Part shown: piece after piece, positions 1,266 through 25,459 of the stretch
Layout of the letters: the number at the start of each line of letters is the position of its first letter
Numbering within the stretch: the stretch's first letter is position 1
IMG/VR virus record: IMGVR_UViG_3300049432_000064
Span: 1-32,019 of that record
Length of the DNA: 32,019 bases
From: a virus
Strand: one strand, 5' to 3'
Program-made: the position numbers and the translations under genes
The notes under the pieces: model-generated
What the model saw: the letters and a program-made list of their open reading frames with translations, nothing else
What the model was told of the DNA's origin: nothing
The model's database searches: none

Positions 1266-3394
1266 GCGCCGACACGATCTCCCCGGTTGGGGAAGGCTCG
1301 CCGTCGCCGTCGGGCGCTACGGCGAGTGATAGTGCGGGCGGCGGGGCGGGGCGGGGCGGAAGCCAGCCCAGCTCAGGAGCCCCTCTCGTGGTCGTTCAGC
1401 AGCCTCGCGGCGCTTCCCCGCCCCGCCCCGCCCCGCGTCCGCCGCAGCCCGCCGCGGACGCTTCGCTGCGCAACGGGTACGCGGCGATCTCACACAGCGT
1501 GTCCAGTGAAACGGCGGCGATCGGCCTCGGGTTCCTCGCCGCCGGTCCGGTCGGTGCGGTCATCGCTGGGGCCACGCTGCCTGTGCTGGTGGCTGCGTCG
1601 ATGTGGCGTGCGCGGCGCCGTGAGCACGACGAGAACGCCAACGCTGCCGCCAACGAGCCGGGCGCCGGCAGGGACCGGTCGGGCCGCGACCGTTCCGGCA
1701 GCGACGGCGGTAGGCGTCGTTCGCCGAACAGCCCGAACAGCCCGGGCGGCGGCACCGGTGGCGGCCGGCCGAAGACCCCCAAGACAACGGGCCCCGGCGG
1801 CGGCTCCGGCTCTGGCGGGAGGCAGCGCAAGCCGAAGGTGAAGGACCCGGTCGCCGAGAAGCTCCTCAAGGGCCTGAACAAGCTGAAGCCCAACAAGGAC
1901 AGCGGTGACCTGAAGGGCCCGAAGAACAAGACCCCGAAGGACAGCCCGGGAAAGGGGCTGAAGGGACCGAAGCCCGGAAGCGGCGACAGCTCGGCGAAGG
2001 GCCTGAAGGACGGGCCGAAGGGCCGCGGCAAGCAGCCGCCGAGCGACAGGCCGTGGCGCGGCCGAGGCGACAAGCCCGGCAGGCTGCGGAAGGACAAGAC
2101 TCGTACCGGCGCCGACACTTCGTCGGCCACGGCACGCGACGGCCTCCACCCGAAGAAGCCGAAGGGCCCGAAGAAGCCCAAGGGCGGCGGCGACGTCGAG
2201 GTCTTCGACGCGGAGATCGTCGACGACGGCCTGCCCCCCAAGCCCGACCGCGCCCCCGGCGACGTCATCGACGGCGAGATCATCGACGACCGCATCGAGC
2301 TCGTGAAGAAGACCCGCGAACGCAAGCGCCGCCGCCAAGCGATCGCTGCTGGGAAGCGAGCCGAGCAGGACGCCGCCCGCGACGGCACCCAAGGCGACCC
2401 CCACGCCGTGAAGGTCCACGTCATCCGAGAAGCGAACGCCCGCATCGACCTGGAACTCGCCCGCACCGACCAGATGCTCGTCCTCGCGGCGTCGACCGCA
2501 CAACGAAGGAGCACCCCCGTGACCTACCCCGTCGCCACCGTCCAGCCAGCAGCCACACGGACAGCCGGTGTTGCGGTCGCCCGCCAGGTCGACGTCCGCG
2601 CTTCCGACGCCTACCGGCTCCTCGTGGCCATGGCCGAGCAGCTCGCCAACGGCCTCCACGGTGACGACGACGCCGACATGGCCGACCACGTCGTCGAGCT
2701 GGTCGGCATCCCGGCCATGTGCCGGAACCTGTCTGTCGCGGTCCGTGAGGGCGCGGCCGCCCTGCAGAAGACGGCGCCCCTGCACCCTTCGGTGATCAAG
2801 CACCTCAACAACGCTGCCGTCGCCGCCGTCACGGCGGCACGCATGGCGGACACGATCCTCAGCGTGTTCGTGCAAGCCCACCGCGCGGACATCATCCGCG
2901 TCATGCAACCCCGTGTAGGCGAGCCGCGGTGGAACATCCGCAACGCCCCCGGCACCCTCGACGCCGCGAAGCTGCGCGCCGCGCTCCTGGCCGCCGCCCA
3001 GCGCCCCGCACTCCCCGCCGGATCCACAGCGGGCGGCAGCACGGGCAAGGTCGTGCCAGCCTCTGCCGCGAGCACGAAGAGGCTCGTCAGCCTGATGATG
3101 AACTTCGACCGCGGCCACATGGTCGTCGTCCTCTCGGAGATCGCGGGCGCGGCCCGCGGTGTGGACGTTGTCGCCGACTCCGTCATCCGGCTCTACCGGC
3201 GGATGGCCACCTCGTGGCCGACCGAGCAGGTCGTCGACGACACCGTCCGCGCGACCGCCTCCAAGGTGAAGACCGTGGCGGCCGAACTCCACAAGGCGAT
3301 CAAGGCGGCGCAGCGAGCCCACCAGCGCGAGCTCAAGCTGAACGCGAAGCCCCGCAAGGGAGCCCGCGCCGAGCAGAAGTGGGACGTCGTATGA
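1262..3394 (+). CDS. Large membrane-anchored, Lys/Pro/Gly-rich transfer-operon protein, 710 aa
   Basis: GTG start overlapping the previous stop by four bases. Visible layout: a Gly/Ser/Pro-rich N-terminus (1-68); a hydrophobic hairpin (about 83-118) ending in a cluster of arginines; a long disordered basic stretch (about 125-310) with repeated GLKGPK/PKKPKG-type motifs; an acidic segment repeating the pattern D.EI(I/V)DD; and a mostly helical C-terminal half of about 330 residues ending in a lysine-rich tail. No enzymatic motif was found. Its position directly before and overlapping the FtsK/TraB-like gene, and its membrane anchor plus polycationic linker, suggest a DNA- or translocase-binding membrane scaffold of a Streptomyces transfer system. 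This is inference; no characterised homologue is recognised. Confidence 0.65.
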   Translation: MSADTISPVGEGSPSPSGATASDSAGGGAGRGGSQPSSGAPLVVVQQPRGASPPRPAPRPPQPAADASLRNGYAAISHSVSSETAAIGLGFLAAGPVGAVIAGATLPVLVAASMWRARRREHDENANAAANEPGAGRDRSGRDRSGSDGGRRRSPNSPNSPGGGTGGGRPKTPKTTGPGGGSGSGGRQRKPKVKDPVAEKLLKGLNKLKPNKDSGDLKGPKNKTPKDSPGKGLKGPKPGSGDSSAKGLKDGPKGRGKQPPSDRPWRGRGDKPGRLRKDKTRTGADTSSATARDGLHPKKPKGPKKPKGGGDVEVFDAEIVDDGLPPKPDRAPGDVIDGEIIDDRIELVKKTRERKRRRQAIAAGKRAEQDAARDGTQGDPHAVKVHVIREANARIDLELARTDQMLVLAASTAQRRSTPVTYPVATVQPAATRTAGVAVARQVDVRASDAYRLLVAMAEQLANGLHGDDDADMADHVVELVGIPAMCRNLSVAVREGAAALQKTAPLHPSVIKHLNNAAVAAVTAARMADTILSVFVQAHRADIIRVMQPRVGEPRWNIRNAPGTLDAAKLRAALLAAAQRPALPAGSTAGGSTGKVVPASAASTKRLVSLMMNFDRGHMVVVLSEIAGAARGVDVVADSVIRLYRRMATSWPTEQVVDDTVRATASKVKTVAAELHKAIKAAQRAHQRELKLNAKPRKGARAEQKWDVV
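1336..1436. repeat. Long G-rich/C-rich inverted repeat with quadruplex motif
   Basis: The left arm 1341-1363 and right arm 1412-1436 are complementary over 17 bp (GCGGGGCGGGGCGGGGC) plus 6 bp (GGAAGC/GCTTCC), interrupted only by a 2-nt bulge, around a 48-nt loop. The left arm also contains four runs of three or more Gs (GGG at 1336-1338, then three GGGG runs), so it can fold as a G-quadruplex; the right arm can do so on the opposite strand. It lies inside the linker-coding 5' part of the 710-aa gene. It may only reflect Gly/Arg and Pro/Arg codon repeats. Confidence 0.7.
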
Positions 3395-5571
3395 CCGCCA
3401 CCGAGTCCCCGGCCGGCCTGGAGACCCTCTCCGACAAGCCCAAGCGCTGGGACTTCTCCCGCGACGCCGTCACCCCCGGACGTCTCACCGCCTGGGGTGC
3501 CGAACTCGCGTGCGCCAGCGCACTCATTGCCCCCCTCGCCGACATCCCCTGGCAGGGCGGCACCGCCGCGGGCGTCATCTGCACCGGGACAGCCGTCGTG
3601 TACGAGAAGGCCAAGGGCTCCTGGCGGCGCGTCACCGTGGCCCGCGCCTCGTCGTGGCTGGCCACCACCGGATGGCTGTCCTACGCGCTCGCCACCGGCC
3701 CGACCCTGATCACCATGGCCGTCGGTGTCACCACGTGGGGCGCTGGGGCGGCGATGAACATCGGCATGGACCGGTGGGGCCAGACCACCCGCGAGGCCGA
3801 GAAGGAACTCGACAGGCGGATCGCTGAGGGCGAGCAGATCAAAGCCGCCCAGGACCAGTGGGCGAGACTCCTCTACGACATCTGCGGCATCGAGGGCGCC
3901 ACCGCGGACCCCATCGTCGACCGGTGGCCGTCCGGCGCCGGGGAGACCGTGAAGGTCACCCTCCCCGCGCACATGAACATCGACGCGCTGCGCGGCTGGG
4001 AAGCCGAACTCGCCGGAGCCCTGCACCTGCCGAAGGGCGGTGGTGTCGCCTTCTCCGCCGGAGGCGCAGACGTCCCCCGCAACGTCGTCTTCATCGCGAT
4101 CACCCGCAAGAACATGATGTCCGGCGCGATCCCCTACCCGCGGCTGACCCCGACCACGATCAACAAGCCGGTCGCCTTCGGCGTCATCGGCAACGGCTCC
4201 GAGGCCGCACTCAACCTGAAAGACGAAGGCTTCATCGCGATCGGCGCGCAGGGCTCCGGCAAGACCGTCCTGATGAAGACCCTCGGCCTCGGCCTGATCC
4301 GCTGCGACGACGCGATCGTGTGGGACCTCGACACCTCCGCCAAGATGAGCGCCGTCTTCATCAACCCCTACCTGCGGCACGGCATCGGCGTCCCCCTCAT
4401 CGACTGGCCCGCCACCACCCACGACGAATGCCGCCTCGTCGTCCAAGCCGCCCGTGCGGTGATCGCCGCCCGAAAGACGGAGTACGCCGACCTCCTCGAA
4501 GACGAGGACATCGACAACCTGCCCGCCAGGCCGGAGATCCCCGCCATCCACATCCGCGTGGACGAGACCAAGAGCATGCCGGACGAGGTGCTGGAAGGCA
4601 TCGACTTCATCATCGAAGAGGGCCGCTCCGTCAACGTCCGCGTCTCCAACACCGGCCTGCGGGCGACCCGCGACTACATCACCGCCGCGATGGACGAGCT
4701 CACCCCGGGCCGTATCGGCTTGCGCACCAACAACTCAAGCGAGCTCGACATGCTGTTCCCCGGGTTCGGCGCCCCCGACATGGCGATCTTCACCGACCCC
4801 GGGACCGTCGTCTACATGTCCGCCACGAAGGGCCCGCACCAGCCCGCCCCGGCCAAGGCCTACGCCGTCGTAGCCGAAGCGTTCCCCGAAGGCAGCGCCG
4901 ACTACGAGCGGACACAGACCCTCTTCATGGACGCCGCCCGCCAGCTGTCCCCGATCCGGCCCGACCTCGACGAAGTGTCCGCCCGCGCCGCCGGCCTCGC
5001 CTACGGCCAACGCTGGGCACGCTGCATCCCCAACCTCCGCGGCGACGCCCACGGCAACATCGACGCCAGCCGCATGCACGAGTCGGTGTGGGAGCTGTAC
5101 CAGACGTGGCCCCAGCCGGTGTCGTATGACGTGCTCCTCGGCCGCGCCGTCGACGACGACGGGCACACCGTCACCCCGCACGGAACGGCCCTGACGATCC
5201 CGCGGCTCACCGAGCAGATGCTCGACGAGGACGAGCTGGAGCGGGTCGCCGCGCAGGAGGCGGCGATCGAACTGGCTGCCACGAAGGTCCGCCCGAAGTC
5301 GGACGCCGACCTGGCGGTTCAGCTGTTCGCGTCTATGGGGCAGCCGGTCAAGCCGTCCGAGGTGTTCCCGCTGATGGTGAAGGCCGGATACACGCTGTCC
5401 GACCGCACCTTCCGCGACCTGTGCGCACGCCTCGGCCTCCAGGACAAGCTCGTCCGCACCAGCGACGGACGCTACAGCGCACCGGAGGGGGGTGAGAGCA
5501 CTGAAGGAGCAGGACGGGATGCCGGACCCGACGATGACACCGATGGACCAGGCGATGGCTCAGATGGCTGA
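3391..5571 (+). CDS. TraB-like FtsK/SpoIIIE DNA translocase, 726 aa
   Basis: ATG start overlaps the previous stop (ATGA). Two or three hydrophobic segments lie in the first ~130 residues. They are followed by an FtsK/SpoIIIE-type ATPase with Walker A GAQGSGKT (residues 285-292) and Walker B ending in D391-E392 (IHIRVDE). The C-terminal ~60 residues look like a small winged-helix domain (VKPSEVFPLMVKAGYTLSDR). This matches the single-protein translocases (TraB/TraSA type) that move double-stranded plasmid DNA between Streptomyces hyphae, where the C-terminal winged helix reads short repeats at the clt locus. No relaxase is present, consistent with that mechanism. An alternative is a phage FtsK-like protein of unknown use; the SpdB-like neighbours favour transfer. 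Confidence 0.85.
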   Translation: MTATESPAGLETLSDKPKRWDFSRDAVTPGRLTAWGAELACASALIAPLADIPWQGGTAAGVICTGTAVVYEKAKGSWRRVTVARASSWLATTGWLSYALATGPTLITMAVGVTTWGAGAAMNIGMDRWGQTTREAEKELDRRIAEGEQIKAAQDQWARLLYDICGIEGATADPIVDRWPSGAGETVKVTLPAHMNIDALRGWEAELAGALHLPKGGGVAFSAGGADVPRNVVFIAITRKNMMSGAIPYPRLTPTTINKPVAFGVIGNGSEAALNLKDEGFIAIGAQGSGKTVLMKTLGLGLIRCDDAIVWDLDTSAKMSAVFINPYLRHGIGVPLIDWPATTHDECRLVVQAARAVIAARKTEYADLLEDEDIDNLPARPEIPAIHIRVDETKSMPDEVLEGIDFIIEEGRSVNVRVSNTGLRATRDYITAAMDELTPGRIGLRTNNSSELDMLFPGFGAPDMAIFTDPGTVVYMSATKGPHQPAPAKAYAVVAEAFPEGSADYERTQTLFMDAARQLSPIRPDLDEVSARAAGLAYGQRWARCIPNLRGDAHGNIDASRMHESVWELYQTWPQPVSYDVLLGRAVDDDGHTVTPHGTALTIPRLTEQMLDEDELERVAAQEAAIELAATKVRPKSDADLAVQLFASMGQPVKPSEVFPLMVKAGYTLSDRTFRDLCARLGLQDKLVRTSDGRYSAPEGGESTEGAGRDAGPDDDTDGPGDGSDG

Positions 5572-9578: not shown

Positions 9579-10244
9579 ATGAGAGGCGTCATTCTCGCGG
9601 GCGGCCGCGGCACCCGGCTCGGGGACACCACCCGTGTCGTGAACAAGCACCTCATCCCGGTCTACGACCGGCCGATGATCTACTACCCGATCGCCACCCT
9701 GAAGGCGATGGGGTGTGACGACATCCTGATCGTGACGGGCGGGGAGCAGGTCGGCGGATTCGCGCAGCTCCTCGGCTCCGGGTTCACGTATCGGGTGCAG
9801 GACCGGCCGGACGGGATCGCCGGAGCGCTGGCCATGGCGGAGGGCTACGTCGGAGCCAAGCCCTTCCCGGTGGTCCTCGGCGACAACTACTTCTCCGCTG
9901 CACCCGTGATGCCGTCGCGCCCGGCGGTGTTCACGTCGAGGACGGACCGGCCGGAGGCGTTCGGGATCTACGATCCTGGCGCGGCGCGGATCGTAGAGAA
10001 GCCCAAGGATCCCGTCTCGGATCTCGCGGTGACCGGGCTGTACGTGTACGACGTGGACGTCTTCGACGTCATCCGCAGCCTGACCCCGTCGGCGCGCGGC
10101 GAGCTGGAGATCACCGACGTCAACAACTGCTACCTCTCGCGCGGTGCGATGGACGTCCACGAGGTGCCCGGCGTGTGGTCGGACATGGGGACGCCGGACA
10201 GTCTGCTGCGGGCGGCACTGCACGCGCAGGCGGCCGCCGCGTGA
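9579..10244 (+). CDS. rmlA: RmlA-like glucose-1-phosphate nucleotidylyltransferase, 221 aa
   Basis: Makes a nucleotide-activated hexose, probably dTDP-glucose, from NTP and hexose-1-phosphate. All core motifs are visible: GGRGTRL (8-14), K23 in NKHLIPVYDRPMIYYP, Q74-DRPDGIA (base/sugar pocket), LGDN with metal-binding D102, EKP (140-142), GLY.YD, and GELEITDVN with the second metal ligand D180. At 221 residues it is shorter than typical RmlA (about 290). The catalytic Rossmann domain is complete, but most of the C-terminal dimerisation/allosteric region is missing. The start lacks a ribosome-binding site, and CATCCT lies 7 bases upstream. First gene of the sugar cassette; it overlaps the next gene by four bases. 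Confidence 0.85.
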   Translation: MRGVILAGGRGTRLGDTTRVVNKHLIPVYDRPMIYYPIATLKAMGCDDILIVTGGEQVGGFAQLLGSGFTYRVQDRPDGIAGALAMAEGYVGAKPFPVVLGDNYFSAAPVMPSRPAVFTSRTDRPEAFGIYDPGAARIVEKPKDPVSDLAVTGLYVYDVDVFDVIRSLTPSARGELEITDVNNCYLSRGAMDVHEVPGVWSDMGTPDSLLRAALHAQAAAA

Positions 10245-10918
10245 CCGGCCTCTTCCGGGCCGTAGTCATCCCGGCCCGGGACCGGCACGACATGCTGCAC
10301 GACTGCATCGAGTCCGTCGTCGACCAGGTCGACCGGGTCATCGTCATCGACAACCTCTCGAACCCGCCGATCGATCCGGACCCGTGGCACGGGAAGGTCG
10401 GCGTTGTCTCGCTGCCCATCGACCCGCCGAACATCTCCACCCTGTGGAACGTCGGCCTCTCGCTCGCCGACGCACAAGCCCACCGCGCCGGCGGCGAGCA
10501 CTGGGACATCGCCGTCCTCAACTCCGACGTCATCGTCCCCGCGGGCTGGGTGATGTCCCTTTCGATGGCCATGCGCAGCACGACCGCCGTCCTCGCCTAC
10601 CCCGACCAGCACGGCGGCCGCGACGTCGTACTGCACACGAAGGCCGAGCCCGTCGACCTCCGCCAACGGATCACCGGCTACGCGTTCATGCTCCGCGGCG
10701 AACACGGCCTGCGCTTCGACGAAGACCTCGCATGGTGGTTTGGCGACGACGCGGCCGACTGGACAGCGCGCGAGCAAGGCGGAGCCCTCCTCGTCCCCGG
10801 CATCCCCGTCGAACACCGCGCCCCCAACATCTCCACCCACGAGCGGCCCGAACTCCTGGAACAAACCGGCCGGGACCGCGCCACATTCGCACGCAAGTGG
10901 GGCCGGACCCCATGGTGA
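10241..10918 (+). CDS. GT2-type glycosyltransferase, 225 aa
   Basis: GTG start overlapping the rmlA-like stop by four bases. The N-terminus VVIPARDR followed by a LHDCIESV helix and VDRVIVIDN strand is the usual start of a GT-A fold family 2 glycosyltransferase. The metal-binding motif is LNSDVIVP, with D96 as the last residue of an N-S-D version of DXD. Further downstream, GYAFMLRGEHGLRFDEDL and the WWFGDDAADW segment correspond to the acceptor-side region containing the catalytic acid pair. It probably uses the activated sugar made by its neighbours. The acceptor is unknown. It has no membrane segment, so it acts in the cytoplasm. Confidence 0.8.
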   Translation: MTGLFRAVVIPARDRHDMLHDCIESVVDQVDRVIVIDNLSNPPIDPDPWHGKVGVVSLPIDPPNISTLWNVGLSLADAQAHRAGGEHWDIAVLNSDVIVPAGWVMSLSMAMRSTTAVLAYPDQHGGRDVVLHTKAEPVDLRQRITGYAFMLRGEHGLRFDEDLAWWFGDDAADWTAREQGGALLVPGIPVEHRAPNISTHERPELLEQTGRDRATFARKWGRTPW

Positions 10919-10926
10919 GGAGCCAC

Positions 10927-11742
10927 ATGAAACTCGCAGTCACCGGAGGCTCCGGCTTCCTCGGCCAAGCCGTCATCAAGCACGCCGAGCAGGCCGGCCA
11001 CGAAGCCTGGTCGTTCGACCGCGCGCACGGCAACGACGTCCTCGGCAGCCTCGACGCGCTCCGCGGGGCGGACGCAGTCATCCACCTCGCCGGCATGCTC
11101 GGCACGTCGGAGCTGTTCGACGCCGCGGAGTCCGCAGTCCACGCGAACGTGATCGGGACGCTGCGAGTCCTGGACTGGTGCAAGGCGAACGACGCCGGGT
11201 ACGTGGGCATCACCATGCCGCCCGTGTTCCCGTCGGTGTACACGGCGACGAAGGTGTGCGCCGACCGGCTGGCGACGGCGTGGCATGAGGCCTACGGGGT
11301 GCCCGTCTCTCACGTGAGGGCGTTCAACGCCTACGGTCCGGGCCAGAAGTGGGGGCCGGGGCACCCGCAGAAGATCGTGCCCACTTTTGCTCGGGCGGCG
11401 TGGGAGGGGCGGCCGCTCCCGGTGTGGGGTGACGGCGAGCAGACCATGGACCTCGTCCACTCGGACGACGTCGGCCGCATGCTCGTCGACGCTGCCACGC
11501 ATGGGGACGACGTCACGTTCGACGCCGGGACTGGCGTGGCGGTCACGGTGAACGAGCTCGCCGCCGCGGTCCTCGACGTCACAGGGTCGACGGCCGGGGT
11601 GGAGCATCTGCCGATGCGGAAGGGTGAGCGGCCGACGCGGATCGTCGCGCAGGGGGATGGGTGGGATCGGCTGGAGTGGAAGCCGGAGTTCGCGTGGCAG
11701 CGTGTGGCGGAGGTCGTGGACTGGTATCGGTCTCCGGTATGA
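10927..11742 (+). CDS. NAD-dependent sugar epimerase/dehydratase, 271 aa
   Basis: Extended short-chain dehydrogenase/reductase family. The NAD-binding motif is TGGSGFLG (6-13), and the catalytic pair is Y105-X3-K109 in VYTATK. A following segment RAFNAYGPGQ and a C-terminal MDLVHSDDVGRM are diagnostic of nucleotide-sugar epimerases/dehydratases (GalE/RmlB/UXS group). At 271 residues it is shorter than RmlB (about 330), so 4-epimerase or related activity is as likely as 4,6-dehydration. ATG 10927 is chosen because GAGGAG lies 5 bases upstream; ATG 10912 is in frame but overlaps the previous gene. It probably converts the nucleotide sugar made by the RmlA-like enzyme. Confidence 0.85.
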   Translation: MKLAVTGGSGFLGQAVIKHAEQAGHEAWSFDRAHGNDVLGSLDALRGADAVIHLAGMLGTSELFDAAESAVHANVIGTLRVLDWCKANDAGYVGITMPPVFPSVYTATKVCADRLATAWHEAYGVPVSHVRAFNAYGPGQKWGPGHPQKIVPTFARAAWEGRPLPVWGDGEQTMDLVHSDDVGRMLVDAATHGDDVTFDAGTGVAVTVNELAAAVLDVTGSTAGVEHLPMRKGERPTRIVAQGDGWDRLEWKPEFAWQRVAEVVDWYRSPV

Positions 11743-12410
11743 GCCGAGTTGCGCTGATCACAGCGATCTACGACGGGTATGACGAGTTGAAGCCGGTGCT
11801 GCCGCAGACGGGTGTGGACGTGGAGTGGATCTGTGTCCACGACGGCCCGCTGCCTGACGCGGAGGCCGCGCAGGGCTGGACGCTGGTGTACGAGCCGCGG
11901 CCGGGGGTGCATCCGAACCGGGCGGCGAAGCATCCGAAGTACGAGCCGTGGAAGTACACCAGCGCACCCGTCTCCATCTGGGTGGACGCGTCGTTCCGGG
12001 TGGTCTCCGAGACGTTCGCGGCCGAGGCGGCAGCACTGCTCACGGACGAGGAGCCGATCGCGCAGTTCGCTCATCCGTGGCGGGACTGCCTGTACGCGGA
12101 GGCCAAGGAGTCGGCGGGGCTGGCGAAGTACGCGGGTGAGCCGGTGCTGGAGCAGGCCGAGGACTACAGGCGGGCCGGGCACCCGGAGAACTGGGGGCTG
12201 TGGGCGACCGGGGTGATCGCGCGCCGTCACACGGAGGCGGTACGGAAGATGGGCTGGCTGTGGCTGGCAGAAACGTACCGGTACTCGTTCCAGGATCAGA
12301 TCTCGCAGCCGTTCGCACTGCGGGAGAAGGGGCTGCGCCCGACGGCGCTGCCGGGGAATCATCTGGCCACACCGTGGCTGGCTTACGAAGGAAGCGCGAG
12401 GCACGGATGA
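11739..12410 (+). CDS. DUF616/TOD1-MUCI70-like glycosyltransferase, 223 aa
   Basis: ATG start overlapping the epimerase stop (ATGA). The sequence follows the DUF616 pattern: an N-terminal ALITAIYDGYDEL strand-turn, a D/E-W-x-C.HD segment, an RAAKHPKYEPWKY basic block, SIWVDASF as the metal-binding-type Asp motif, FAHPWRDCLYAEA and a C-terminal DQISQPFALRE. DUF616 proteins include plant TOD1/MUCI70 and bacterial surface-polysaccharide enzymes and are regarded as GT-A-like glycosyltransferases. A donor sugar cannot be predicted. The 3' half of the cassette from here uses more G-ending codons than the genes before it. Confidence 0.75.
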   Translation: MSRVALITAIYDGYDELKPVLPQTGVDVEWICVHDGPLPDAEAAQGWTLVYEPRPGVHPNRAAKHPKYEPWKYTSAPVSIWVDASFRVVSETFAAEAAALLTDEEPIAQFAHPWRDCLYAEAKESAGLAKYAGEPVLEQAEDYRRAGHPENWGLWATGVIARRHTEAVRKMGWLWLAETYRYSFQDQISQPFALREKGLRPTALPGNHLATPWLAYEGSARHG

Positions 12411-12670
12411 GCGAGCAGCAGATACCGACGGTGGGCCGGATCGTCCACTACGTCAGCCACGGGACGCCCGTCCGTGAGGATGGCACGCAGGCGTACACCG
12501 AGCAGTGCCGCGCAGCAATCATCACGGGCGCACCCGACTGCGATGCCCACATGGAGTGCGCGTCTCTCGCCGTGCTCAACCCGACAGGCCTGTTCTTCGA
12601 TCAGCACGTTCCGCACAACGAGACCAGCCAGCAGCGCGGCGGCACGTGGCACTGGCCGGAGCGTGTCTGA
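12407..12670 (+). CDS. Small actinophage protein of unknown function, 87 aa
   Basis: ATG start overlapping the previous stop by four bases, with GGAAG further upstream. The sequence VHYVSHGTPV near the start, an ECASLAVLNPTGLFFD middle and a GGTWHWPE C-terminus are those of a short protein family that I recognise as common in actinobacterial phages, usually near structural genes. No function is established. The compact SH3-like beta pattern and conserved Trp/His suggest a small beta-barrel. In this window it sits inside the sugar cassette, although relatives are found apart from such genes, so it may not take part in the sugar pathway. Confidence 0.7.
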   Translation: MSEQQIPTVGRIVHYVSHGTPVREDGTQAYTEQCRAAIITGAPDCDAHMECASLAVLNPTGLFFDQHVPHNETSQQRGGTWHWPERV

Positions 12671-13113
12671 TGGCGAGCATTGAGATCGGCGGCGGCACCC
12701 TCGTCCAACCCGGCTGGATCAACCTCGACTCCCGCAACGGCGACGGCGACTGGAAGCGCATGGCGCAGGACACGCCGTGGCCCACGCCGGACAACAGCAT
12801 CGACGCGATCCGCGCCTCGCACGTGATGGAGCACATCCCGGCCGGGCAGCCCCGCATTGACGTGATGAACGAGGCGCACCGCGTGCTGAAGCGGGGCGGT
12901 GTCTTCGAGGTCATCGTGCCGATCGTGAACGACCCGCTGTCGTGGCACGCGATCGCCGACCCCACCCACGTCAGCTTCTGGGTGCTGGAGTCGTTCCACT
13001 ACTTCGACGGGCACTTCGCCGCGAACGCCGACTACGGGATCCGGCTGTGGCAGACGCTGGAGCTGCGGGTCGAGGGCGGCTTCGAGTGCCACTGGAAGGG
13101 CACCCCGCGGTGA
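12670..13113 (+). CDS. Class I SAM-dependent methyltransferase, 147 aa
   Basis: The ATG shares one base with the preceding stop (TGATG). The SAM-binding motif I is a short IEIGGG (4-9), followed by GWINLD (acidic end of strand 2), the VDAIRASHVMEHI segment (motif II/III region) and EAHRVLKRGGVFEVIVP (post-III). This matches predicted SAM methyltransferases of the COG4627-like group often found beside glycosyltransferase genes. It is small (147 residues), with the core Rossmann fold but little substrate domain. The likely substrate is the sugar or glycan made by the neighbouring enzymes; a protein or DNA substrate cannot be excluded. Confidence 0.75.
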   Translation: MASIEIGGGTLVQPGWINLDSRNGDGDWKRMAQDTPWPTPDNSIDAIRASHVMEHIPAGQPRIDVMNEAHRVLKRGGVFEVIVPIVNDPLSWHAIADPTHVSFWVLESFHYFDGHFAANADYGIRLWQTLELRVEGGFECHWKGTPR

Positions 13114-13691
13114 CGCCAGGCGTGACGGTCGTGACCCCCTTCCACGCTCAGCGGAAGGCCAACGGCATGCTCGAACGTGCCGCGCGCTCCGTCCAAGCCC
13201 AGACGTTCCCCGTCGCCCACATCCTCGCCGAGGACATCCACCACGTCGGCGCCGCCATCACCCGCGCACACGGCCTCCACCTCGTCGACACCGAATGGAC
13301 CGCATTCCTCGACAGCGACGACGAGCTCGACCCCGACCACATCGAGCATCTCCTCGCCTGCGCCGAGGAGACCGGCGCCGACTACGTGTACCCATGGTTC
13401 CGCGTCGTCGGCGGGACGGACCCCTTCCCGATGTTCTTCGGCCGCCCCTTCGACCCGGCCTGCCCCAACAGCACGACGATCACGATCCTCGTCCGTACCG
13501 AGCTCGCCAAGCAGGTCGGCTTCGCCCGCGACCCCAACGTCCAAGTCTCCGGCGAGGACTACGCCTTCACCCTCGGCTGCATCGCCGCCGGAGCAAAGAT
13601 CGTCCACCACCCGGCGAGGACATGGACGTGGCACCACCACGGCAGGAACTCGGCCGGCCTACCCGACCGCGGTGACGCACGCCGCCGCTGA
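13110..13691 (+). CDS. GT2-type glycosyltransferase, 193 aa
   Basis: GTG start overlapping the methyltransferase stop (GTGA). A GT-A fold is indicated by VTVVTPFHAQR at the N-terminus, the SVQAQTFPVAHI strand, and FLDSDDELDPDHI with the D68-S-D70-D71 metal/nucleotide motif, the classical GT2 sequence. A later VSGEDYAFTLGCIAAGAKI corresponds to the catalytic ED. HHP and WHHHGRNS near the C-terminus match the end of many GT2 domains. It is soluble and lacks a processive-synthase membrane region, so it adds single sugars. It ends 42 bases before the large terminase gene and closes the cassette. Confidence 0.8.
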   Translation: MTPGVTVVTPFHAQRKANGMLERAARSVQAQTFPVAHILAEDIHHVGAAITRAHGLHLVDTEWTAFLDSDDELDPDHIEHLLACAEETGADYVYPWFRVVGGTDPFPMFFGRPFDPACPNSTTITILVRTELAKQVGFARDPNVQVSGEDYAFTLGCIAAGAKIVHHPARTWTWHHHGRNSAGLPDRGDARRR

Positions 13692-15814: not shown

Positions 15815-17635
<1,821 letters not shown>

Positions 17636-17661
<26 letters not shown>

Positions 17662-20542
17662 CGGCTCGCATCTGCAGGGCGGGATGATCGCGCTCATGCC
17701 GACGGCGGAGGACGCCGAGCGGCTGGCGATCGAGGGGGGCGAGGCTGCCGACCAGCTGCATCTGACGCTGTACTTCCTCGGCGATGGCGACGATTTCAGC
17801 AAAGAGCAGCAGCGCGCCCTGGCCGCCGCCGTCGAAAACGCCATGGACTACATCGGTCCCGGACCGATCACCGCGCGCGTCTTCGGCGCAGCCCACTGGA
17901 ACGGAGGCAGCGACAGCCCATCCTGGGTGTGGTCCGTAGGCGACGACCGGGAAGCGCAGTCTGACGCGCCTCGGCTGGAGGATGCGCGCACCGTCGCCGC
18001 TGAAGCGCTGCTGCAGAGCGGCCTGTTCGCCGATATGCCAGTGCAGCACTCGCCGTGGGTGCCGCACATCTGCGCTGCCTACTCGGACGAGCCGGACCTG
18101 ATCCTCGCGCTGGAGGAGCGTCTCGGTGAAGTGACCTTCGACCGGATCCGGGTGGCGTTTGCCGGGGACCACACTGACGTCCCGCTGGCACTGGCGGTCG
18201 TCGCTGCGGCCGGGCCGCTGCGCCGGAAGCCCACGGCGCTCGAACTCGCCTCCCGCGCCGACTTCGCCGCGATGGACAAGGCCTGGCACGACGCCGTCGA
18301 CGCCACGGTCGGCGCGTGGGCCGACGTCCAGGCGGCACAGCGCAAGCAGATCACCGCCGCCGTACAGGCCGCCGCCGAGGCCGACAACCTCGACCGGCTC
18401 GACGAGTTCACCGTCGACACCGACGACGGCGCGACACTCCTCATCGCCCGCATGATCTCCTACGCCCGCGAGGCAGGCGAGCAGCAGCAGGCCGAGGCCG
18501 AAGCCCAGGGCGTCACCGTCCCAGACTGGTCGCTCGACGACGAAGCGTTGACCGCCGCCGCGATCCGCGACCGGCTACGCCAGGTCGGCCGGACCGCCGC
18601 GCGCGTGCTGGGGACGGGGCTCGTGCAATCCGCGGTCCGGCAGGCGATGCGAGTGTGGGGCTCCGGTACGGCGCAGCACGTCGCAGCGCAGGTCGACGAG
18701 CACCTTGCGGCCCTGTCCGGGGCGGCAGTTGAGGAGCAGATCGGCGCGGCCATGACCGCCGCACAGAACGAAGGACGCATGGCGGTCCTCGCCGTTGCCC
18801 CTCCTGCGGAGTATGTGGCGACCGAGATCCTCGACAGCAAGAACACGTGCAAGCCGTGCCGCGAGATCGACGGCCGCCGTTTCACCACCCTCCCCGATGC
18901 ACGCGAGGCCTATCCGACCGGCGGCTACACCAAGTGCCAGGGCGGCTCCCGCTGCCGGGGCACCCTCGTCACCGTCTGGCCGCAGGACGACGAGCAGGCA
19001 GCAGCCGGAACGATCATGGCGTTGGCTGCGGCCACAATCCCACCGACCGACCACCAGCAAGGAGGCACCGTGGCGCGCACAGTGCAGGACCACCCGGACT
19101 GCGGTGCTGACACGCCGTGGGCCGTCGTCGACGACGAAGACCAGCTGCAGGGCTGCTTCGCCACCCAGACCGAAGCGGACGCCGCCTGCGCCGAGATGGA
19201 CGAGGACACAGGCAGCAACGAGGAACCCGACGACGCGAGCATGGACTACACCGGCAAGACCGCCCCGTGGGAAGGGCCTCTCGCGGTGGAGGGCATCGTC
19301 ACCGGCGACGGCAGAGAGTTCGCCGAGGGCGCCCTCACGTGGGCCGACCTCCCGGTGCCGCTCAGGTGGAACAAGGAAGACTCCCACGGTGGTGAGGCCC
19401 GCACGATCGCCGTCAACGTGGGCCGCATCGACCGGATCTGGCGCGACGGCAACAAGATCATGGGCGCGGGAGTCCTCGACCTGTCCGACGACGACGGCCG
19501 CCGCGTCTACGCCAAGATCGAAGGCAAGTTCCTCCGCGGCGTGTCCATCGACGCCGACTCCATCGCCGACGCCGACGTCGAGTACGTCTTCCCCGAAGAC
19601 GTCAACGCGGGCACCGGAGAAAGCGACGGCGAGGACGACCTCTTCGAGATGCTGTTCGCGCAGCCCGAGAAGGTCATCTTCCACGGCGGCCGGATCCGCG
19701 CCGCCACCCTCGTCGACATCCCCGCATTCGCCGAGGCGTACATCGCCCTCCTCGACGAGGCCGGCGCGGTCGTGGCCGGCGGGGTGCCTGTCACCGCGGC
19801 GGAGGTCGAAGCCCTCGCCGCGCCCGAGCTGGAGGAGCAAGAGCCGAAGCCGCGCCTTCTGCGTGCGGTGACCGCCAGCGTCGACCTGTGGAAGCCGCCG
19901 GCCGAGTGGTTCACCGATCCGGGCCTCTCGCTGCCGACGCCGATCACGGTGACGGACGACGGCCGGATCTACGGGCACGCCGCGCAGTGGGGGTCGTGCC
20001 ACATCGGGCAGGACGACGTGTGTGTGCAGCCGCCGCACGAGGATGCCCACCCGTACTACCGCACCGGCGAGGTGGCGTGCGCGGACGGCTCGCGGGTGGC
20101 GGTGGGTCAGATCACGGTAGGGACCGGGCATGCGCCGCTGCACTACGGCGCGTCTCCGGCGGCCGAGCACTACGACAACACCGGCGCAGCGGTGGCGGAT
20201 GTCGCGGTCGGCAATGACGCGCACGGCATCTGGGTAGCGGGGTGCGTGCGGCCGGGCGCGGATCCGCTGAAGGTGTATGAGCTGCAGGCGGCGGGTCAGG
20301 TGTCGGGTGACTGGCGGCGGATCGGCGGGTCGCTGCGGCTGGTGGGCCTGCTGGCGGTGAATGTGCCCGGTTTCCCGGTGCCGAAGATGCGGGCGCGGGT
20401 GGCGTCCGGGGAGCCGCAGGCGCTGGTGGCGGCGGGTCGTCCGACGGTGGCGTGGGGGAAGTCGCAGATGGATCTGGAGCGTGATGCGGTCCGGATTGTG
20501 ATGCGGATGCTGTCGCGCCGCGTCCACCCCGGAGGGAGGTGA
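17636..20542 (+). CDS. Fused 2H-phosphoesterase, MuF-like and prohead protease protein, 968 aa
   Basis: ATG 17636 is chosen because CGGAG lies 5 bases upstream; a GTG at 17606 lacks one. Residues ~15-190 form a 2H phosphoesterase/LigT-like domain: H42-L-T-L in HLTLYFLG, and a second motif H144-I-C-A where T or S is usual. Residues ~200-460 are helical and end in a MuF-like head morphogenesis segment with C405, C408, C434 and C440 (NTCKPCREIDGR, KCQGGSRCRG), a probable zinc site. Residues ~530-720 resemble a herpes/HK97-type prohead protease with candidate catalytic H584 and S637 (LRGVSID). About 200 further residues have unknown fold. It probably processes the scaffold part of the capsid protein. 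The next gene pair follows after a small ORF and hairpin. Confidence 0.75.
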
Positions 20543-24184: not shown

Positions 24185-25459
24185 ATGGCGCTTGCCCAGT
24201 ACAGCGAGCTGTTCTGGTTCCCCTCCGGGGCGCTGGCTGCGAGCGTTGTGGCGAGGGTGTTCGACCACGACACGAACACTCTCGCCACGCTGTGGGCCGA
24301 CGCTGGTGGGACGGTGCCGCTCGCCAATCCGCTCAGCACGAGCGGCGCTGGGCGGCTGGAGTTCTGGGTCGAAGAGGGCGAGTACTGGGTCCACATCGAC
24401 AGCGAAGCCTTCGAGATCGCGGTGGGGGCGTCGACTGAAGGGGCAACGCTCGCCGACATCACGGCCGCCGTGTCCGCGCACAACGCCGACACCACCGACG
24501 TCCACGGCCTCGCCGACACATCCGCCGTGGTGCTCACCAGCGACGCGCGCCTGACCAATGCGCGCACACCGACAGGCCCCGCCGGAGGCGACCTCAGCGG
24601 CACCTACCCCAACCCCGCGGTGGCCAAGGTCAACGGCGTGACCGTAACCGGCACCCCGACCGCCGGCCAAGTCCCCACCGCTTCCTCCGGCACCGCCGCT
24701 TCATGGCAGACCCCGGCCTCCCCGCCGTCGCCTGCGGCCACCGTCACCGCAGAGACCGGCTACGCGCAGGCGTCAGCGGCTGGCGCGGCGTCGACGTTCT
24801 CCCGCGGCGACCACACGCACGGCACCCCGTCACTCCCGACCCCGGCAGCCATCGGCGCTCTCGCCACTGTCGGGGACCAGACGTATACGGGTGAGCTGTC
24901 CTTCGTCGACCGCATCCCTGTGCTGCCTGCGTTCGATGCGGCGTTCGCGAATCAGGCGGTGCGCAAAGCGCAGTTGGATGCGGCGGTTGCGGGCGCCGGG
25001 TCTTCGATCCGCACCGCGCGCGTACGGATCACCGACGACAACCTCTCCGGGTTGCCCTCGGCACCGTCATGGACCGTGGTACAGACATCGGCTGGCACCA
25101 AGCTCCAGTGCTCTATCGCCGCGGCCGACGGAGACCGGATCAAGGTCTACGGGAACTTCATGCACGACGGCTCCCACTTCCTGGACTGGACTCTCCTCGA
25201 CAGCGCAGGCCTGCCTGACGAGTACGGCGCCGCCGAATCAGGCACGCCCCTCGCCGAGGGCAACCCCACGATGTACACCAACAACGCCTTCCTGCGGGTG
25301 ACATCAGCGGACATGTTCACCGTCGCGGCAGGCAACATCAACGCAGGGATGGCCACGGTCGCCCTGGCCCACCAGGGCACCGGTGCCGGGAAGGTGTACG
25401 CACACACCCTGTACCCGTGGCGGCTGCGCCTGGAGAACATCGGGCCCGAACCGGCATGA
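24185..25459 (+). CDS. Fibre-like virion protein, 424 aa
   Basis: ATG start with GAGGGGG upstream. The N-terminal ~80 residues are the small beta domain seen in actinophage minor tail proteins ([22 protein letters not shown]). Next come short collagen/fibre-type repeat segments ([44 protein letters not shown]) and a C-terminal beta-rich ~200 residues that may be a receptor- or carbohydrate-binding head. This is the composition of a tail fibre or capsid spike. Its position between the tube gene and head-tail connector genes is unusual; a fibre on the capsid or neck is possible. Confidence 0.7.

Follow-up and report, generated by a model that had tools for sequence, protein, structure and literature searches.

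Seven co-directional genes lie immediately upstream of the gene for the large terminase subunit (TerL) in the stretch of DNA analyzed here, a 32,019-base virus record from IMG/VR (hereafter the window, itself a fragment), where they occupy positions 9579-13691 of the plus strand. We consider it likely that they form a virion-glycosylation module, with a putative acceptor, of a temperate Streptomyces siphophage lineage. This reading builds on an invariant order of five of the genes among relatives, purifying selection and conserved catalytic motifs, on coupled gene starts, the apparent lack of any promoter- or terminator-like site inside the cassette and its place in the head gene block, and on the swapping of sugar genes in the same slot among relatives. 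The choice of virion proteins as acceptor is favored most strongly by analogy with modules in mycobacteriophages (Che8 and cluster O-type).

Table 1. The cassette and its terminase neighbors in the window.
Feature	Position	Strand	Basis
Putative small terminase subunit (TerS), 200 aa	8923..9525	+	position; phrog_3678; chimeric homologue
RmlA-like glucose-1-phosphate nucleotidylyltransferase, 221 aa, short C-terminus, optional	9579..10244	+	TIGR01207, PDB thymidylyltransferases
GT2a, GT2-type glycosyltransferase, 225 aa, core	10241..10918	+	PF00535 4e-5
Short SDR nucleotide-sugar epimerase/dehydratase, 271 aa, core	10927..11742	+	PF01370 (Epimerase) 8e-34
DUF616 (TOD1/MUCI70) glycosyltransferase, 223 aa, core	11739..12410	+	PF04765 5e-9
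87-aa protein, phrog_2293, probable passenger	12407..12670	+	phrog match; scattered homologues
Class I SAM-dependent methyltransferase (MT), 147 aa, core	12670..13113	+	PF08241 (Methyltransf_11) 6e-7
GT2b, GT-A fold glycosyltransferase, 193 aa, core	13110..13691	+	PF00535 1e-10, phrog_14775 1e-44
Large terminase subunit (TerL), 454 aa	13734..15098	+	PF03237 2e-14, PF17289 2e-5

All seven open reading frames named in a first-pass annotation of this DNA are present, with Pfam matches that agree with the functions it had assigned (Table 1). The genes had also been described as overlapping, which holds for five of the six junctions (four by 4 nt, one by 1 nt) but not for GT2a and the short SDR, which are separated by a gap of 8 nt. 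Gene starts within the cassette are coupled at these overlaps, and no promoter- or terminator-like site was found between 8800 and 15100, which is weak evidence in a GC-rich actinophage. Downstream of TerL, the window continues with genes for the portal, a MuF/protease-like fusion, the MCP and the MTP, i.e. a head gene block.

The same annotation had placed the cassette between the two terminase genes. From its family matches, the downstream neighbor is certainly TerL. The upstream one encodes a protein that matches phrog_3678 (function unknown), with no phage match and no profile match against four TerS or TerS-position proteins. One relative has a chimeric gene in this slot, the middle of which matches OnionKnight gp1 (annotated as TerS, E 3e-6) and mu1/6 gp31, while a C-terminal stretch of 44 aa is 66% identical to the window protein. 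Since this relative joins the OnionKnight gp1/mu1/6 gp31 region to a window-like C-terminus, the window protein is likely TerS, and the proposed position of the cassette is retained.

Among the individual enzymes, the first is matched by the Pfam domain NTP_transferase (5e-40), by PDB glucose-1-phosphate thymidylyltransferases (down to 1e-54) and by TIGR01207 (6e-56, profile positions 1-235 of 286), and it carries the sequence and the active-site motifs of the RmlA family (GGRGTRL, LGDN and EKP). We label it as RmlA-like only, because its score of 189.7 bits is below the TIGR01207 equivalog cut-off (360.65) and the C-terminal 51 profile positions are unmatched. No RmlB-type dehydratase occurs in the window slot, which leaves the sugar pathway incomplete there, and no member of the RmlC family was found among 14 relatives. 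The short SDR has a GG-G NAD motif and a YTATK motif that are conserved throughout its family, and its nearest PDB chain is Pal (6bwl). The idea that its catalysis was lost by an internal deletion was dropped, as the short loop before YTATK is common to the whole family; such a loss is also disfavored by the Ser/Thr at the strand end, which only one sequence lacks. The methyltransferase shows invariant class I motifs across its family (EIGGG..GW.N.D and EHIP).

Three of the cassette genes encode glycosyltransferases, two of which (DUF616 and GT2b) have modelled GT-A folds. The DUF616 enzyme scores 36.3 bits against PF04765, above the gathering score of 21.4 for the family, and its predicted structure (pLDDT 93.5) lies near GT6/ABO enzymes and viral TOD1/MUCI70 proteins; a profile search gave no solved relative for it, nor did a sequence search for GT2a. 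In GT2b, residues D42, D68, D70, D71 and E149 are conserved. No clear transmembrane segment was seen by hydropathy in any cassette protein. Homologues of the 87-aa protein were found in 263 actinophage records, scattered over many unrelated positions, and it was consequently rejected as a cassette enzyme; it is probably a hitchhiker.

Related loci were gathered from IMG/VR in three scans and from bacterial genomes by searching with a TerL alignment, and were mapped using the window proteins. This resulted in 27 TerL-bearing loci, namely 24 IMG/VR contigs, the window and two Streptomyces genomes, although two contig pairs look redundant and the number of independent phages is thus slightly below 27. 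In these loci GT2a, the short SDR, the DUF616 enzyme, the methyltransferase and GT2b occur ahead of TerL in a single invariant order, a recurrence that argues against a chance grouping. The stable unit is accordingly GT2a-SDR-DUF616-MT-GT2b. The seven-gene set, which had been proposed as a unit, is therefore reduced to this five-gene core, with RmlA as an optional member (eight mapped loci, the window and Streptomyces caniscabiei counted in) and the 87-aa gene present in only 16 of the related loci. Two Streptomyces genomes, S. caniscabiei NE06-02D and Streptomyces sp. 549, harbor complete cassettes within large contigs, and tyrosine integrases were detected in six of 14 related records; a Streptomyces host and a temperate habit of the lineage are thus well supported.

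The surroundings of the core are more variable. Many relatives have an RmlB-like SDR2, which carries TDE and YxxxK motifs, between TerS and GT2a; the window lacks it. Other sugar genes exchanged in the same slot are RmlA, a UDP-sugar dehydrogenase, a 2OG oxygenase and extra glycosyltransferases, and in one relative most of the cassette has given way to SDR2, a glycosyltransferase-like gene, a UDP-sugar dehydrogenase and another methyltransferase-like gene. The five-gene core is missing from relatives with a more distant TerL, three of which retain only an SDR2-like gene. In contig 3300044698_000217 (L036) the methyltransferase is separated from the 87-aa gene by an inserted gene for a TnpB-like protein, called from its sequence (locus coordinates 3734-4924, minus strand).

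Selection was estimated by Nei-Gojobori calculation of dN/dS between the window and its closest relatives, for pairs of moderate synonymous divergence. The core genes and RmlA gave values of 0.14-0.28, the 87-aa gene was higher (0.30-0.45) and TerL lower (0.09-0.12). The cassette genes are hence under purifying selection (0.14-0.45). Absence from all close relatives, with signs of decay, had been named in the first-pass annotation as an outcome that would speak against its proposal; the cassette is instead conserved and selectively maintained. Pairwise distances of DUF616, GT2b and the SDR are intercorrelated (r 0.63-0.82; DUF616-GT2b 0.82, SDR-DUF616 0.76) but only weakly correlated with those of TerL (r 0.20-0.31), which suggests that the inner cassette is exchanged partly en bloc. 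The distances of GT2a instead follow those of the portal (r 0.82) and the MuF fusion (r 0.87).

Could the locus then be a cargo or moron island, i.e. metabolic genes collected at a tolerant insertion point without a single joint product? The variation of accessory genes among relatives (RmlA, 87 aa, SDR2, 2OG oxygenase, UGDH, TnpB-like gene) would fit, as would the weak correlation of cassette genes with TerL (r 0.20 for GT2b and 0.10 for MT). Such an island would, however, leave the fixed five-gene order in 27 loci and the purifying selection unexplained, and the covariation of the inner genes speaks for joint function or joint exchange. We regard it as quite improbable.

In the favored scenario of virion glycosylation, RmlA would convert glucose-1-phosphate, its presumed substrate, to dTDP-glucose or a related NDP-sugar, which the short SDR would turn into the sugar used, aided by a host dehydratase or, in relatives, by SDR2. 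GT2a, the DUF616 enzyme and GT2b, all predicted to be cytosolic, would then add sugars successively to side chains of late structural proteins, and the methyltransferase would O-methylate the short glycan. The putative acceptor would most likely be the major capsid protein, the major tail protein or both. If transcribed together with TerS, TerL and the head genes, the enzymes would be produced at the time of virion assembly. Another candidate, the Ser/Thr/Ala-rich fibre-like protein of 424 aa encoded at 24185-25459 (between the MTP and the head-tail adaptor), was rejected as an obligatory acceptor, because it has no match between these two genes in the cassette-bearing L069 and L070 (Streptomyces).

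Precedent comes from mycobacteriophages. Che8, Corndog and Myrna are reported to have glycosylated proteins (PMC12363180), and the same article, citing Freeman et al. 2023, reports Che8 gp110 and Corndog gp38 as essential for glycosylation of the capsid. In Che8 (cluster F), gp108-gp110 resemble the cassette in combining several glycosyltransferases and a methyltransferase in adjacent, overlapping genes: gp108 reads as a fusion of a GT2 domain and a methyltransferase-like domain, while gp109 and gp110 are glycosyltransferases. Unlike the cassette, these genes are situated away from the terminase, at the right genome end, and no RmlA, SDR or DUF616 gene is annotated in the Che8 stretch consulted. 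GT2b matches the GT2 domain of Che8 gp108 with a profile probability of 87.5%, which may reflect GT2-superfamily membership only; the other cassette proteins have no detectable homology to gp108-gp110, and none of GT2a, DUF616, GT2b and MT gave a profile match to Che8 gp110 or Wildflower gp36.

Wildflower stood in for Corndog in the comparison with cluster O, to which we take it to belong from its size and gene order. Its gp33-36, one methyltransferase and three glycosyltransferases, are like the cassette found inside the head operon (portal-MT-GT-GT-GT-protease-MCP). This cluster O-type module is placed after the portal, whereas the cassette precedes TerL, and it consists of non-orthologous enzymes without adjacent nucleotide-sugar genes. 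On sequence grounds, the cassette and the mycobacteriophage modules are analogous and not orthologous, with similarity in function only, so that the mycobacteriophage parallel suggested earlier holds for function and layout (Che8, Wildflower; PMC12363180) but not for the genes themselves. This lack of orthology to proven mycobacteriophage enzymes weighs against virion glycosylation. The earlier preference for a virion target is nevertheless upheld in its direction, with precedent as the strongest argument: overall, this is a real, conserved and probably virion-directed glycosylation cassette, whose acceptor is putative.

The nearest solved folds of the GT2b model (pLDDT 90.8) point elsewhere, to RmlT, TarP and TarS, enzymes that glycosylate teichoic acid. 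They share the GT-A fold with GT2b (TM-score to query about 0.70-0.76) but are larger, with extra domains, are 14-19% identical to it, and use a cell wall polymer as acceptor. This weighs against a virion target, as do the incomplete sugar pathway of the window and its fragmentary nature. The cassette might thus modify a host surface glycan from the cytosol, likeliest wall teichoic acid, and thereby block superinfection or alter adsorption. The prophage-encoded TarP of Staphylococcus aureus is a precedent for teichoic-acid modification by a phage gene. Since GT2b has these predicted fold neighbors and the lineage is temperate (integrases in six of 14 records, copies in large Streptomyces contigs), we regard teichoic-acid modification as the main rival; moreover, RmlT, TarP and TarS are cytosolic, and thus compatible with the lack of clear transmembrane segments. 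Against it, a position between TerS and TerL favors late over lysogenic expression, RmlT and TarP are longer than GT2b, a minimal GT-A domain of 193 aa, and the three glycosyltransferases with a methyltransferase parallel virion modules. On balance it seems rather improbable.

Because the cassette adjoins the DNA-packaging terminase, glycosylation of modified phage DNA bases, as a means of restriction evasion, was considered as well; phages such as T4 glycosylate their DNA. No thymidylate synthase/hydroxymethylase (PF00303) was found in 14 related records, some of them perhaps incomplete, while controls were detected, and base hypermodification is therefore unlikely. The glycosyltransferase folds furthermore match glycan/teichoic-acid transferases and GT6-type enzymes, and base glucosylation would not call for a sugar methyltransferase, all of which makes DNA as the target most improbable.

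Returning to virion glycosylation, a partial counterpart of the cassette occurs in the Streptomyces phages Zuko and KimJongPhill (Zukovirus). They share the order GT2a-MT-GT2b, with GT2a (Zuko gp108 and KimJongPhill gp109) and GT2b about 60% identical to those of the window. By contrast, the DUF616 enzyme and the short SDR were not detected in them, their methyltransferase is different, their cassette is found at the far genome end, and a 2OG-Fe(II) oxygenase is positioned ahead of GT2a. This oxygenase directly precedes GT2a in Zuko-type phages and one relative (L002:3823-4470, L003:3990-4634, L016:2462-3115 and L019:6061-6762), belongs to PF13640 in L002 and L016, and possibly hydroxylates the attachment residue or the sugar. 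Just upstream of the Zuko terminase genes, gene 4 (L099:1319-2380), annotated as UDP-glucose dehydrogenase, is an SDR and an orthologue of the SDR2 of the relatives (about 53%). We found no glycosylation data on these two phages in the literature, and nothing specific on Streptomyces phage glycosylation or on a phage hydroxylase-glycosyltransferase pairing.

A more far-reaching proposal, which we hold to be possible but doubtful, is that these phages make a dedicated nucleotide sugar and coat the virion with an O-methylated glycan that varies between lineages. The terminase slot would then act as a 'serotype' locus, with exchange of the donor-sugar genes around a constant transferase core, and the prolyl-hydroxylase-like 2OG oxygenase of the Zuko branch may hydroxylate the attachment amino acid. 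Virion glycosylation itself, documented in few phages, has already been shown in a few mycobacterial ones, and the window cassette would be a further version of it. If true, virion glycosylation would extend to Streptomyces phages, nucleotide-sugar synthesis and a DUF616 transferase would join its toolkit, and soluble phage glycosyltransferases would become available together with their natural variants. With related cassettes present in two Streptomyces genomes, the idea is open to test. In a soil setting, evasion of animal antibodies cannot be the benefit, and another selective reason is needed, e.g. stability or adsorption.

Lastly, some features outside the cassette deserve mention. The TerL of L070 (8750-10936) has a large in-frame insertion near residue 145, giving an open reading frame of 728 aa compared to 454 aa in the window. 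Insertions are also present in L072 and in several relatives from IMG/VR, and a break near residue 47 splits the protein in some relatives. Both have the look of inteins placed in the ATPase motifs; the TerL of the window is uninterrupted. The portal open reading frame of the window opens with a run of 22 prolines (CCN repeat, 15862-15927), which may precede the true start or may be an artefact of assembly. At 17684-20542, a protein of 952 aa combines a 2'-5' RNA ligase-like N-terminus with MuF/head-maturation-protease-like regions, and such fusions are annotated in Streptomyces woodruffviruses. An FtsK/SpoIIIE-like ATPase gene (phrog_31069) at 3391-5571 recalls actinobacterial conjugative elements.
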